This document shows, in pieces, positions 23,034 to 29,969 of a DNA stretch of 64,000 bases. Each line of letters starts with the position of its first letter. The first letter of the stretch is position 1. Where the stretch lies: NCBI RefSeq assembly GCF_001957135.1, contig NZ_MPHK01000002.1, forward strand, positions 279,463 to 343,462, read 5' to 3'. Under the pieces are notes generated by a model. That model was not told the origin of the DNA, searched no databases, and worked only from the letters and a program-made list of their open reading frames with translations. Source of the DNA: Shewanella sp. UCD-KL21. Lineage in GTDB: Bacteria > Pseudomonadota > Gammaproteobacteria > Enterobacterales > Shewanellaceae. A program made the translations under genes and the position numbers.

Positions 23034-24506
23034 TCACTTGCGGGTATCTAAATACTTTTGCAGTAGTTTGCGTAAACTTTCTGCCTTAGTGCCAAATACA
23101 ACCTGCACTCCACGCCCCACTTTGATCACCCCTTTCGCGCCTAAGCGCATCAATCTGGGTTTATCGACAAGTTTTGGGTTCACGACTGAAATGCGTAAGC
23201 GGGTTAAACAAGCATTTAATTCAACAATATTGTCAGCACCTCCAAGGGCGCTGATCATCGCGCGGAGGCTTTCTTTATTGCCGTGACCATCAGCATCTAA
23301 CCGCCCAGGGGTTTTTAAGTTAAATGCTACAATACTGACTCTAAAAATGAAGTAGTAAATAAAAGCCGTTAACGGCCCTAAAAACCAAATCCACTGAGTA
23401 TTACTTGATTGAGCAAACAACAAACTGAAATCAATCAGGCCGTGGGAAAACACCACACTGTGTTTTACTTCAAGCAAAACACAAACGCTATAGGCCACAC
23501 CTGTCAGAATGGCGTGAATTAAAAACAATATCGGCGCCACAAACATAAAGGCAAATTCAATGGGTTCGGTGATCCCAGTTAACCAACTTGCGGTTGCGGC
23601 TGACAGCATAATTCCGGCAACGCGATTGCGTTCAGATTTATCCGCGCTACGCCAAATAGCCAATGCAGCTGCAGGGAGCCCCCACATTTTAATTAAATAA
23701 CCCCCAGCAAAATTACCCGCAGCAGGATCTCCTGCAAGGTATCGAGCAATTTCGCCCTTAACGATTTTACCTTCGTGTAAGTATTGTCCCACTTCCAAGT
23801 AAAAGGGCACGTTCCAAATGTGGTGTAGCCCCAATGGGATAAGTAATCGTTCAATGGCGCCATAAACACCAAAGGCGACAGCAGGCTCTTGGTATACAGC
23901 CCATAAGGATAAAGAATCGATTTTATAGGCCAGTGTGGGCCAAATAAACGCTAAGATGAACGCCATCAGCATGGAAAATGGAATAATGAGCAAGGCTGCA
24001 CTGCGATGGCCTTCAAAAAATGAGAACACCGCTGGCAGTTTTACATTTTCACTTAATCGCACCACCAAACAAGTCAGCGCGCCAATGAGCACACCACCAG
24101 CAATTCCGGTATCCATTGTCTCAATCCCCCAAATAGGCCTCGAGGGTAAGTGATAAAGGGTTGTCATTGCGCCAAGGCTTGAAATATAAACGCCAAAGCC
24201 AAAAACTGCGACAAATGCGGCAATACCTTGGTCTTTACAAAAGCCAATGGCAATAGCAACGGCAAACAGTAAAGGCATCATCGAGAAAATAAGATTGCCA
24301 ACAGCGGAGAAAATAATGGCAAGTTCACTGGGGATAAAAGGCAGAGGATTGGCAGAAAGCCCAAGCATGACGCCAGCTGCGGGTAAAATGGCGATGGGAA
24401 TTAACAGCGCCTGACTGAGACGCTGAGCAAATTTAAACCACCGCTGGCTTAATAACCTTAACTGTCTTGCGACTGGGTTACTGCGGTTTGCCAAGTTGTT
24501 ATCCAT
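23034..24506 (-). CDS. PTS sugar transporter, fused EIIC-EIIB (glucose/GlcNAc/maltose family)
   Basis: The 490-aa membrane permease has an EIIC domain (LIPIAILPAAGVMLGLSANP near residue 35; ITEPIEFAFMFVAP in the sugar-binding region). A C-terminal EIIB domain carries the phosphorylated cysteine in NACLTRLRIS. No EIIA domain is fused, so phosphate must come from an EIIA encoded elsewhere. The family is Glc-type, but the exact sugar cannot be set from sequence. The annotated ATG lies inside the 3' end of yqcA (49-bp overlap). The first about 25 residues are hydrophilic and atypical, so the true start may be internal. Confidence 0.88.
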   Translation of the reverse strand: MDNNLANRSNPVARQLRLLSQRWFKFAQRLSQALLIPIAILPAAGVMLGLSANPLPFIPSELAIIFSAVGNLIFSMMPLLFAVAIAIGFCKDQGIAAFVAVFGFGVYISSLGAMTTLYHLPSRPIWGIETMDTGIAGGVLIGALTCLVVRLSENVKLPAVFSFFEGHRSAALLIIPFSMLMAFILAFIWPTLAYKIDSLSLWAVYQEPAVAFGVYGAIERLLIPLGLHHIWNVPFYLEVGQYLHEGKIVKGEIARYLAGDPAAGNFAGGYLIKMWGLPAAALAIWRSADKSERNRVAGIMLSAATASWLTGITEPIEFAFMFVAPILFLIHAILTGVAYSVCVLLEVKHSVVFSHGLIDFSLLFAQSSNTQWIWFLGPLTAFIYYFIFRVSIVAFNLKTPGRLDADGHGNKESLRAMISALGGADNIVELNACLTRLRISVVNPKLVDKPRLMRLGAKGVIKVGRGVQVVFGTKAESLRKLLQKYLDTRK

Positions 24507-24922
24507 TGTGTGGCTTCAGTTTCTGGCTCCATGGTTTCACAGGCATCGATTTCAAGGCGCGGCGTGATACTGGTTGCACCGAGTTCAGTAAGCAGTTCAT
24601 CAAATTGTTTTCCGGCGCCGCAGAATGTTTCATAGCTTGAATCACCCAGGGCAATAACGCTGTAGTTAAGCTTAGGCAAATATGGCGCTACTGAGCGCAA
24701 CTCGTTAAACCATGGCGCAATATCTTCAGGTAAGTCACCGTGACCTGTGGTTGAGGTCACTATGATCAGTAACTCATCTTCTGCTGGAACATAGCCCAAT
24801 AGCTCTGTTGGCTGAAACAATTGGGTATTAAAATTCAATTGTGCAATCTTATCGGTTAATGTTTCAGCAACAAATTGTGCACTTCCATATACTGTTCCGA
24901 ACACTATATTAACTTTATCCAT
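24458..24922 (-). CDS. yqcA: YqcA-type flavodoxin
   Basis: The 154-aa flavodoxin fold has an FMN phosphate loop GTVYGSAQFVAE at the N-terminus and the flavin-binding stretches VTSTTGHGDLP and ALGDSSYETFCGAGKQFDEL. The latter two closely resemble E. coli YqcA. The neighbourhood truC-yqcC upstream also matches the E. coli yqcC-truC-yqcA order, which favours YqcA over MioC. It is a one-electron carrier whose partner is unknown. The 3' end overlaps the PTS gene. Confidence 0.88.
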   Translation of the reverse strand: MDKVNIVFGTVYGSAQFVAETLTDKIAQLNFNTQLFQPTELLGYVPAEDELLIIVTSTTGHGDLPEDIAPWFNELRSVAPYLPKLNYSVIALGDSSYETFCGAGKQFDELLTELGATSITPRLEIDACETMEPETEATQWITTWQTAVTQSQDS

Positions 24923-26645: not shown

Positions 26646-27674
26646 ATGACACAACTCGAAACCCTAAGTGAATTTTTAGACACCGCTAATACTCAATTTC
26701 AGGTTTATGATTTAGGCCGCAGAGTCGAAAACATCGATATGATGTTGTTTAATCAAATTGAAGCATTAAAAACCCCTTATCCTTTTCCAATCCAAGGACA
26801 TGCACAATTTGCTATCGTATTTTGGCGCGAGGCGCAGCCGCCTTTCATTTGGTTTTTAAAACTGCCACTGGATGAGCAAGGCTTGTTATCACCAGCCCAG
26901 CGTAGCCAGTTCATCAAAATGATCTTAGAAGCACTAGGGCAAGATCCAACCAAAGCATTAAGTGATGAAGAACAAGAGCGCTATGCTAATCACCCTTTTA
27001 GCTTCAAGCCTAGCCAAGAAAAGCTAGCGCTATTTAATGCCTTAGTGAAACGTCAATTAAGCCAGCAACCATCAGCGCAATATCAATTTGCCGCCAACTA
27101 CTTTGCCGCGCTACTCGCAAGCCCAAAGAAAGTCGACGACTCTTGGCAGCAACTTGGCCTTCAGGGCATTGCCGACATCTGTGTCCGCCTAGATCAACAT
27201 AACCATGCCGCAGAAATTAATGCCGCTTTTGAATTTGCGCCAGTTGAAGTTCAAGCAGCTATTTGCCAATGCTTAGAGCATGTCACTATTGATGCAGAGC
27301 TTGCACAAACCTTGTTTGATAAGTTATCTCAAGCGCCAGTGGAGCATAAGCATATCTATCTTAGAGCCCTTGCTTCACAAGCTGAGTTAACTCAAAAGGC
27401 CATTAAGCAATTGGTTAATTACCAACAACTTGATGAAAACCTGTTGATCACCATTGCAGCCAGAAACTGGATAGCCTTAAAAGATGACCAAACTCGCAAA
27501 CTTTATCTAGAAGTCTTGGCAAATCAGCCACAAATCTTCTTTAACCAAGTATTTGCTGATATCGTGTCTATACCGAGTTTACGCCAGCCGCTGCTGCTTG
27601 AACTAAGAAATACCGAACGAAGTGAAAAATTATCAGCGGCTATTGGCGGTTTATTTAAGGCACTAAGCCAATGA
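26646..27674 (+). CDS. DUF3549 family protein
   Basis: The 342-aa soluble, helix-rich protein opens with ETLSEFLDTANTQFQVYDLG, then VFWREAQPPFIWFLKLPLDE. These conserved stretches are typical of the gammaproteobacterial DUF3549 family. No signal peptide, membrane helix or catalytic motif is visible; the C-terminal two thirds looks like a repeat-type alpha solenoid. Its stop overlaps the start of the DUF3301 gene (ATGA type), so the two are coupled. Function is unknown. Confidence 0.85.
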   Translation: MTQLETLSEFLDTANTQFQVYDLGRRVENIDMMLFNQIEALKTPYPFPIQGHAQFAIVFWREAQPPFIWFLKLPLDEQGLLSPAQRSQFIKMILEALGQDPTKALSDEEQERYANHPFSFKPSQEKLALFNALVKRQLSQQPSAQYQFAANYFAALLASPKKVDDSWQQLGLQGIADICVRLDQHNHAAEINAAFEFAPVEVQAAICQCLEHVTIDAELAQTLFDKLSQAPVEHKHIYLRALASQAELTQKAIKQLVNYQQLDENLLITIAARNWIALKDDQTRKLYLEVLANQPQIFFNQVFADIVSIPSLRQPLLLELRNTERSEKLSAAIGGLFKALSQ

Positions 27675-28057
27675 TGTCAGATTTTATTTTAATCGTAGCA
27701 GTCGTGGTTGTGGCCGCATTCTTTTGGCAATTACGACAAATGGCAGAAATTAGCCGCAAGTATGCTGAAAGCGCCTGCGGTAAGCAAAAAGTACAACTAC
27801 TTGCTATCGCGATGGAGTCAGCAAGGCCTAGCCTGGGTGGGACTACTGGCCTTTGTTGGCGTGCTAAATTTTTGTTTGAATTTAGCACCGATGGCATGAA
27901 TCAATATCGCGCACATATCCAAATGCATGGTAAAAAAATAGAAAAAATAAATTGGCCTATTTTCCCAGAGCCAGAGTGGATGGATGCGCCGATGGCAAAA
28001 GGTAAGTTTGGTGGTTGTGGCGGCGCATCTAGCTGCAACTCCGGAAAGTGTAAGTAA
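27671..28057 (+). CDS. DUF3301 family membrane-anchored protein
   Basis: The 128-aa protein has an N-terminal transmembrane helix (FILIVAVVVVAAFFWQL) and a basic linker (RQMAEISRKYAESACGKQKV). A small beta-rich domain follows (LLAIAMESARPSLGG, WRAKFLFEFSTDGMNQYRA). The C-terminus is Cys/Gly-rich (GGCGGASSCNSGKC), which could bind a metal. The TM-plus-small-domain pattern matches DUF3301, often next to DUF3549. It overlaps that gene by 4 bp. Function is unknown. Confidence 0.85.
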   Translation: MMSDFILIVAVVVVAAFFWQLRQMAEISRKYAESACGKQKVQLLAIAMESARPSLGGTTGLCWRAKFLFEFSTDGMNQYRAHIQMHGKKIEKINWPIFPEPEWMDAPMAKGKFGGCGGASSCNSGKCK

Positions 28058-28142
28058 TTTATTGGCTTATCGACTCAATAGCTAAGCCATACTGCATAAA
28101 TCATTTCTTACTAGAAAATCGTTATTTATTAAACGTTAGCCA

Positions 28143-28656
28143 AAAGAAAGACCGCGACAAATCATTGCCGCGGTCTCTTGTACTTTTGTTAAGCCATCCA
28201 GCTATTGTTGTGCTCCCTGCACCATCCATGCGTCTTACTTGCTCCGAGCGCTATCCTTATTCAATCCTTGATATTCCTTGTACACTTAAGTACTTTCCAT
28301 GTTACTCGATTATCCATTGACCGAGCCTGCTCATATCCTTAAGCGTGTCCTTAATTCATCCTTGGTGTTCTTCCATGACATCCTTTAATCAAGTTATTGC
28401 ATCCAATGCATTCACCATAAATCCCTTATGGCGTAAATCCCTTAATTGATGTCCTTCAATCTAAATAAAGTCGCTTATATCCATAAACTGCAGTGATGGG
28501 GTATTAGTGAACTCCGTTTTCACTAACCTTTTAACCATGCCACTATCCATAGCGTACATTTTGCGTTGAGTTAAAAGTCACTGTAGAGCAGAAAACACTT
28601 TACTTATAATCCTGTTAATACAACTTAAGCACTTCCTGTGCATATTTGCTTTCTTG
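28143..28656 (-). ncRNA. csrB1: CsrB-type regulatory RNA, copy 1
   Basis: The minus-strand transcript is inferred from a -10 box (TATAAT, 28668-28663) to a terminator hairpin (28150-28175) with a TTTCTTTT tail, about 510 nt. It contains about 23 GGA motifs (TCC on the plus strand), many as AGGAU or CAGGA in short hairpins, such as those near 28233, 28265, 28388 and 28615. That density is the hallmark of CsrB RNAs, which sequester the CsrA regulator. It lies between yqcC and syd, where E. coli csrB lies. A GacA/UvrY box precedes it. The 5' end is predicted, not measured. Confidence 0.85.
28145..28176 (-). terminator. Terminator of csrB copy 1
   Basis: The stem GACCGCG/CGCGGTC has an inner CAA/TTG extension and a 4-base loop. 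The minus-strand T-tract (TTTCTTTTG) follows. Confidence 0.85.
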
Positions 28657-28662
28657 GTATCT

Positions 28663-28668
28663 ATTATA
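28663..28668 (-). promoter_or_regulatory. -10 box of csrB copy 1
   Basis: The minus-strand hexamer is a consensus TATAAT with no good -35, as expected for an activator-dependent promoter. Its centre is 169 bp from the upstream GacA box, identical to copy 2. Confidence 0.65.
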
Positions 28669-28825
28669 GTTCAACAGGTAAGTCATAAGTATTCACATTA
28701 CAGTGCAATTACAAAGTGGCAACACTACCAAACCAGCAAGCTTTAAATTAAAACCAATAAAAACAACAACTTTAAAATAAACCTGATTTAAGGCGCGTTT
28801 CAAATGCGACAAGGCTTACAGCTCT

Positions 28826-28843
28826 TGTGAGATATATCGCACA
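28826..28843. promoter_or_regulatory. GacA/UvrY box upstream of csrB copy 1
   Basis: TGTGAG-N6-CGCACA resembles the GacA upstream activating sequence TGTAAG-N6-CTTACA (9 of 12 positions). It also resembles a CRP half-site pair, so CRP binding is an alternative reading. Confidence 0.65.
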
Positions 28844-28915
28844 AACACCCTAGCAGTTAGGGAAGTTAATGGTTGCAGACAATTCACATATTTAACATTT
28901 GTATTTCTGGAATGT

Positions 28916-28948
28916 AAAAAGCGCAACCCTAATGAATTAGGATTGCGC
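28916..28948 (-). terminator. Terminator of csrB copy 2
   Basis: The stem GCGCAA...TTGCGC continues to AAT/ATT with one mismatch and a TGAA loop. TTTTT follows on the minus strand. Confidence 0.88.
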
Positions 28949-29444
28949 CTATTTTACGCTCTGTTAGCTTATCCGGCTAAATTGTGCTTCCCTGCTCCAT
29001 CCATGCGATTATTTGCTCCCTGCTCCCTTTATTCCCTGTTACTCAATATCCTTGTATTCTTGCCAGTTGCTGAATACTTGAGCTTTCAATCCTTTGAACA
29101 GTCGATCCCTTTGACTGACAGTTTTACTCCTAGATTACCATCCTGGTATGCTGCGTCCTGCAATCCGTCATCATCCTGATGAAGGTTCATCCTAGTTTCA
29201 GTTATCCATAACTGAGCTTATGCCCTTTCCTTGAGCGTGTCCTGACTTCGTCCTGAATTCATATTTTGAGGTAAGTATTGAGAGTGACTCGCTTAAATAC
29301 CTCAATGAACAATCAGCCCCATCCCTTTAATTGCTATCTCATCCTGAAATTAACGCCCAAAGGTTTATGGGATAACTACATGACTATTCATCATAAGTGC
29401 AATTTTAAACAAAACATCCTGTTCTATTTATGTTGCGACTTGAT
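28916..29444 (-). ncRNA. csrB2: CsrB-type regulatory RNA, copy 2
   Basis: This is a second minus-strand CsrB-like gene, about 530 nt, from a -10 box (TAAAAT, 29456-29451) to a terminator at 28921-28948 with a TTTTT tail. It has about 23 GGA motifs, several as CAGGAU or AAGGAU (for example near 29016, 29110, 29142 and 29418). It aligns with copy 1 over much of its 3' half; compare CCATCCATGCG at 28222 and 28997. Promoter, GacA box and terminator sit at nearly the same offset (about 770-790 bp) from their copy-1 counterparts, indicating tandem duplication. A 78-codon plus-strand ORF inside it is not coding. Confidence 0.87.
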
Positions 29445-29450
29445 GAAATT

Positions 29451-29456
29451 ATTTTA
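29451..29456 (-). promoter_or_regulatory. -10 box of csrB copy 2
   Basis: The minus-strand hexamer TAAAAT is in the same position relative to its GacA box as in copy 1 (169 bp centre to centre). Confidence 0.6.
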
Positions 29457-29613
29457 GCTAAATTCGTTAACGAGAAAATAACCCATTTACGAACAAACCA
29501 ATAAGTTACGGTCACAAAAACAAACCCAAAAACTTAAGGCAATGTTTTTATGAATAAAAATCAAATTCAGCTAGAGAATACATACAGACAAAAGTTAGAT
29601 AACTTACAGGCTA

Positions 29614-29631
29614 TGTGAGATAAGTCTTACA
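29614..29631. promoter_or_regulatory. GacA/UvrY box upstream of csrB copy 2
   Basis: TGTGAG-N6-CTTACA matches 11 of 12 defined positions of the GacA consensus TGTAAG-N6-CTTACA. Confidence 0.8.
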
Positions 29632-29654: not shown

Positions 29655-29969
29655 TTATGACTTTGAGAGGAATAGCTTTTTTAACATTTGTGCAAACATC
29701 ACCCAGTCGGCGAGCAAACTGTATAACGGGTATTCAAAAGTAGCGGGTTTGTTTTTTTCAAATACAAAGTGACCAATCCATGCAAACCCATAACCAATGA
29801 CGGGGAGCAATAATAGTTGCCACCATTGCTGGCTAACTAGAGTCACCAACAGCAATAGCACTATCAGTCCAGAACCAAGGTAATGTAAGCGCCGACATGT
29901 GGCGTTTTGATGTTGTGATAAGTAGAAAGGATAAAACGACTTAAAGTCTTGATACTGTTTATCAGCCAT
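29655..29969 (-). CDS. DUF962 / Mpo1-like membrane protein
   Basis: The 104-aa protein starts with the DUF962 signature FKSFYPFYLSQHQNATCRRL (His and Cys/Arg near the N-terminus, then HYLGSGLIVLLLL). Two or three membrane helices and the conserved GYGFAWIGHFVFEKNKPATF follow. Yeast Mpo1 of this family is an Fe-dependent dioxygenase that alpha-oxidises 2-hydroxy fatty acids; the conserved histidines are present here, but the bacterial role is unproven. It is 3 bp downstream of the GNAT gene, in the same operon. Confidence 0.85.
   Translation of the reverse strand: MADKQYQDFKSFYPFYLSQHQNATCRRLHYLGSGLIVLLLLVTLVSQQWWQLLLLPVIGYGFAWIGHFVFEKNKPATFEYPLYSLLADWVMFAQMLKKLFLSKS

Follow-up and report, generated by a model that had tools for sequence, protein, structure and literature searches.

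Does the intergenic region between a DUF3301 gene and a DUF962 gene of Shewanella sp. UCD-KL21 hold two csrB genes, and are both copies likely to be functional? In the window, i.e. the whole 64-kb stretch of DNA that was analysed, the region is flanked on one side by the DUF3301 gene (27671-28057; Pfam E 8.5e-28) and on the other side by an Mpo1-like gene (29655-29969; PF06127, E 9.8e-42). DUF962 is an older name of the PF06127 (Mpo1-like) family. Two csrB-type sRNA genes with predicted 5' ends lie in between on the minus strand, the upstream copy at 28916-29444 (~529 nt) and the downstream copy at 28143-28656 (~514 nt); the names are positional, with upstream denoting the DUF962 side and downstream the DUF3301 side. 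The initial annotation had placed two minus-strand non-coding genes here, and GGA motifs, hairpin, box and -10 hexamer were indeed all found in each of them. Its estimate that all elements are offset by about 770-790 bp also agrees with the measured distances, which are 788 bp for the box, the -10 hexamer and the predicted start and 773 bp for the 3' ends. Inside either csrB gene, no minus-strand ORF of at least 60 aa was present; on the plus strand, one ORF (28943-29179, 78 aa) overlaps with the upstream copy.

The first evidence for the identity of these genes is their GGA content. Each copy contains exactly 23 GGA motifs, where about 23 had been annotated, and none of 1000 dinucleotide shuffles reached this number for either the downstream copy (shuffle mean 11.2) or the upstream copy (shuffle mean 13.5). 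When both strands of the 64 kb were surveyed, the densest 300-nt GGA windows were the two csrB stretches (20 and 19 motifs; next 7). The sequences of the two copies differ strongly, and the annotated combination of diverged sequence and conserved motif number was recovered.

Second, both copies were matched by the CsrB covariance model of Rfam (RF00018) over model positions 1-356. The upstream copy is matched at 28912-29201 with 39.1 bits (E 9.3e-9; 40.2 bits over a longer stretch in the genome search) and the downstream copy at 28140-28408 with 37.2 bits (E 3.5e-8). The covariance search that had been proposed as a check was therefore positive for both genes, though below the gathering score of 71 bits, which is a curator's cut-off and no biological feature. 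Because of this difference, an Rfam scan of the window at the gathering score listed nothing. We rejected this empty scan as proof of absence, since the E-value scan yielded whole-length matches and relatives are below the cut-off, too: only 9 of 96 Shewanellaceae genomes have a match above it, and 80 of the 89 genomes with a match have none above. A whole-genome CsrB search at E<=10 returned the two places in the window and no other. Weak hits with this model lack specificity, as 8 of 14 control genomes, some of them unrelated, were also matched at E<=10; at E<=0.01, E. coli was the only control genome with a CsrB match. The E-value scan also yielded eight weak hits to other Rfam families in the window (E 0.19-4) and, at 29222-29349 inside the upstream copy, a third CsrB match, which is partial (11.4 bits, E 2.3); all of these were attributed to chance.

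The predicted RNAs are also structured. Their folding is more stable than that of 100/100 shuffles, with z -3.69 for the downstream copy and z -3.26 for the upstream copy, and the unpaired fraction is higher for the GGA motifs (0.69 and 0.72) than for the entire RNAs (0.41 and 0.41). In the two copies, 10/23 and 11/23 GGA motifs can be placed in the loop of a hairpin with a stem of 4 bp or more, a number that was reached in 26/500 and 17/500 GGA-fixed shuffles; the excess of GGA in hairpin loops is small. The intrinsic terminator annotated for each copy corresponds to a terminator-like hairpin on the minus strand at the 3' end, with 14 pairs and a loop of 4 in both cases, followed by a T-run in the upstream copy (28919-28950) and by a T-rich tail in the downstream copy (28147-28178). 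As the 3 kb scanned contain 4 terminator-like sites against a shuffle mean of 2.3, the evidence lies in the place and stem length of these hairpins and not in their count.

Upstream of each gene, a candidate 18-bp UvrY/GacA-type box was recognized on the minus strand by reading and by a pattern scan, at 29614-29631 for the upstream copy (TGTAAGACTTATCTCACA) and at 28826-28843 for the downstream copy (TGTGCGATATATCTCACA). The scan is partly circular, since its pattern was derived from these two boxes themselves; compared with the published TGTAAGN6CTTACA, each box departs at one or a few positions. The -10 hexamers on the same strand are TAAAAT (29451-29456) for the upstream copy and TATAAT (28663-28668) for the downstream copy. 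The annotated distance of 169 bp between box and -10 was obtained for both copies when measured centre to centre; an alternative hexamer of the upstream copy, AATAAT at 172 bp from the box, fits equally well (5/6). In a promoter scan, neither of the -10 hexamers was part of a sigma-70 -35/-10 pair.

The initial annotation had regarded this matched 169-bp architecture as strong internal evidence for a duplicated csrB. This argument did not hold when the spacing was surveyed at 46 loci, namely the window, 5 of the 18 named loci and 40 stretches from 39 genomes, which were picked from the 62 genomes with two or three CsrB matches and are not a random sample. The survey left out 13 named loci (L003-L005 and L009-L018), several of which appear to duplicate stretches already included, as well as the single-copy loci L001, L002 and L021-L050. 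It comprised 89 GGA clusters, 88 of them with a box, defined as the best site in a 470-nt stretch under three typed patterns without shuffle control (0 mismatches in 79, 1 in 9). In 75/88 copies a TATAAT-like hexamer is located 166-172 bp from the box centre, with a peak at 169-170 bp, whereas in the remaining 7-bp bands from 60 to 255 bp, a hexamer is present in 0 to 38 of the 88 copies. This spacing has exceptions: in S. frigidimarina and its neighbours, the best hexamer of the downstream copies is at 157-160 bp, and at L003, which by protein identity is the closest of the named loci to the window, that of the downstream copy is at 178 bp. In E. coli csrB the distance is ~173 bp centre to centre, for a hexamer at -12 to -7 that was assigned by position and agrees with TATAAT at 3/6. 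The 169-bp match therefore reflects a shared promoter layout of csrB rather than special evidence of duplication, and matched spacing was rejected as proof of the pair's origin, both on this family-wide spacing and on the tree described below.

The promoters may contain a further element: 5 bp below its box, on the minus strand, each copy has TGTAAG, possibly a second half-site for UvrY (29603-29608 in the upstream copy and 28815-28820 in the downstream copy). Across the window, L006-L008, L019, L020 and L051-L090, 81 of 86 copies have a GTRRG after the box such that box and TGTRRG are 4-5 bp apart; two doubtful boxes (L080 copy 1 and L087 copy 1) had been dropped from this count. The same motif occurs in 0 to 6 copies in other 10-nt windows within 150 bp, and in a mean of 1.6 copies (maximum 6) in 500 mononucleotide shuffles; as many of the csrB copies are related, the 86 copies are not independent. 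The element is already known in enterics: for E. coli and Salmonella, the accessible text of one study reports it as a partially conserved additional sequence (PMC4682653). That it is almost always present in the Shewanellaceae copies surveyed is an observation of the present analysis. One may tentatively speculate, at somewhat less than even chances, that the csrB operator of the Shewanellaceae is composite, with palindrome and half-site 22-23 bp (about two helical turns) apart and mostly 166-172 bp to the -10 hexamer. Two neighbouring UvrY dimers might then occupy the same face of the helix and contact RNA polymerase by a loop, perhaps bent by IHF, and the two csrB lines would have been retained under this operator, in most cases next to each other, over much of the history of the genus. 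IHF-like sites (one mismatch allowed) were detected between box and -10 in 70 of the 86 copies (50 mononucleotide shuffles: mean 30, maximum 39). For the window pair, two such sites were detected in the upstream copy and none in the downstream copy, so nothing rests on them.

How old is the pair? A relative of the DUF3301 protein is encoded at 18 named loci, all of them from Shewanella. Among 96 Shewanellaceae genomes, 89, including that of the window, have a CsrB match at E<=0.01 (two matches in 59 genomes, three in 3, one in 27 and none in 7); stricter filters were applied in this table, and weak copies may be missed in these counts. In Shewanella sp. ANA-3, both RNAs (54.6 and 54.2 bits, again below the cut-off) are located between the corresponding two genes, as judged by similar proteins, in the same gene order. 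Some CsrB pairs are not in tandem; they are far apart on one contig in G058, G069 and G032 and on different contigs in G042. From the survey loci plus L017 we extracted 76 RNAs, with 15 clusters lost for want of a called terminator, and 67 of these RNAs were used for a tree after removal of 2 duplicates (ANA-3 was present twice) and of 7 RNAs with doubtful terminators or from three-cluster loci. On this tree, the upstream and downstream labels require 4 changes each, compared with ~21 in shuffles (0/500 as low). Neither copy group forms one clade, at least 2 of the 4 changes are forced by well-supported branches, and 5 rows fall in no group; some inner branches are weak, and long branches were flagged. 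The upstream copy of the window is placed among upstream copies (100/99) with an end branch of 0.11, and the downstream copy joins the downstream copies weakly (90/66) on a long end branch of 0.39. Since a copy mostly clusters with its counterpart from other species, the duplication appears to be old; in view of the weakness of inner branches, two old paralogous csrB lines, with exceptions, remain a suggestion.

Individual loci differ from this general pattern. At L064 (G051) the two csrB copies are near-identical, with end branches of 0 and 0.007, unlike the other pairs in the tree, which fits a recent conversion or re-duplication. Three GGA-rich clusters in a row were observed at L055 (G014) and at L073 (G066). 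At L055, the box at each cluster and the three CsrB matches in the genome make a triple csrB array likely; at L073, the third cluster is without a box.

Might only one of the two RNAs act as a CsrA sponge, the other being a decaying duplicate? The marked sequence difference between the copies would be in line with this, as would the long end branch and weakly supported place of the downstream copy. Nevertheless, we consider such decay very unlikely, because both copies keep 23 GGA motifs, the terminator-like hairpin, the box, the half-site and the -10 hexamer, because 62 of the 96 family genomes have two or three CsrB matches and most copies of each kind group together, and because in S. oneidensis, according to the available text of PMC11045786, the double mutant regains siderophore synthesis when either RNA is supplied in trans. 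The view that the GGA-rich stretches are functionless purine-rich sequence and not genes can draw on the empty gathering-score scan, yet it can practically be dismissed in light of whole-length covariance matches at E ~1e-8, GGA counts beyond 1000/1000 dinucleotide shuffles, and a box and promoter spacing that are kept across the family.

The preferred reading is that the two genes are orthologues of the csrB1/csrB2 pair of Shewanella, activated by UvrY and each producing a GGA-rich RNA that sequesters CsrA, and we regard it as almost certain. The genome encodes CsrA (E 7.9e-26), a UvrY homologue (69% identity) and a BarA homologue (45% over residues 1-917 of 918). With these homologues, the covariance matches, and the same layout in relatives and in the available text of PMC3171408, the initial annotation of tandem csrB genes with UvrY/GacA-type boxes is supported. 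Anatomy, conservation, synteny and presence of the partner genes are established for the window pair. In the corresponding regulatory pathway, the sensor kinase BarA would drive phosphorylation of UvrY, which in its phosphorylated form would bind the 18-bp palindrome, ~180 bp upstream of the start, and probably also the half-site 4-5 bp below it, and would activate a csrB promoter without a good -35. Each gene would then give rise to an RNA of ~0.5 kb with 23 GGA motifs, many of which may sit in hairpin loops; these motifs are predicted to bind several CsrA dimers and thereby to keep CsrA off its mRNA targets. For the UCD-KL21 genome, we infer the start sites as well as the binding of UvrY and of CsrA. 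The sequence confirms the parts of the Csr pathway, including two csrB genes, in Shewanella sp. UCD-KL21. Moreover, the family-wide picture of the csrB promoter (box, half-site and near-fixed spacing) could aid annotation where the Rfam cut-off misses csrB RNAs.

Compared with known systems, the window RNAs have low similarity to E. coli CsrB, which scores 380.4 bits with RF00018 (against 39.1 and 37.2 bits) and, with 22 GGA motifs in 369 nt, is shorter. The E. coli csrB box (TGTGAGAGATCTCTTACA) is located at -191 to -174 from the annotated start and has TGTAGG 5 bp below, at the distance where the window copies have TGTAAG. E. coli csrB adjoins yqcC-truC-yqcA, with one csrB at the locus instead of two. 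Beyond the DUF3549-DUF3301 pair of the window, genes for a DUF446 protein, a pseudouridine synthase and a flavodoxin follow in the same order, and the window locus thus appears to represent the old position of csrB. Also near the csrB locus, on the minus strand, is a gene for a PTS EIIC-EIIB permease (23034-24506), whose ORF overlaps the flavodoxin ORF at 24458-24922.

The closest known system is csrB1/csrB2 of S. oneidensis MR-1, for which the accessible portions of two studies describe, as in the window, two neighbouring GGA-rich csrB genes with a UvrY/GacA-type box each and a BarA/UvrY/CsrA pathway (PMC3171408, PMC11045786). CsrB1 and CsrB2 of S. oneidensis are BarA/UvrY-dependent antagonists of CsrA (PMC3171408, PMC11045786); in these portions, levels of both RNAs drop >100-fold without BarA or UvrY, and on N-acetylglucosamine or lactate, a csrB1/csrB2 double deletion strain resembles a uvrY mutant in its growth (PMC3171408). 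The dose or timing control of CsrA that the initial annotation derived from the pair would be conceivable in UCD-KL21. In S. oneidensis, the two RNAs are not equivalent: csrB2 is ~tenfold more abundant than csrB1, a growth-phase change in complex medium is reported only for csrB1 (PMC3171408), and CsrB2 seems to be the more effective CsrA antagonist (PMC11045786). The MR-1 RNAs are predicted at 420 and 421 nt, shorter than the ~514 and ~529 nt predicted for the window, while Northern analysis gave ~450 nt for csrB1 and ~700, 600 and 450 nt for csrB2 (PMC3171408, PMC11045786). In MR-1 a transposase separates the two copies, in contrast to the window pair; in other species, S. putrefaciens CN-32 for example, csrB1 and csrB2 are described as adjacent and lacking the MR-1 transposase (PMC3171408, PMC11045786). 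According to the available text of these studies, a tandem csrB pair is already known in Shewanella, and since CsrB1/CsrB2 are published for S. oneidensis and adjacent in S. putrefaciens CN-32, the window pair represents known biology in another species.
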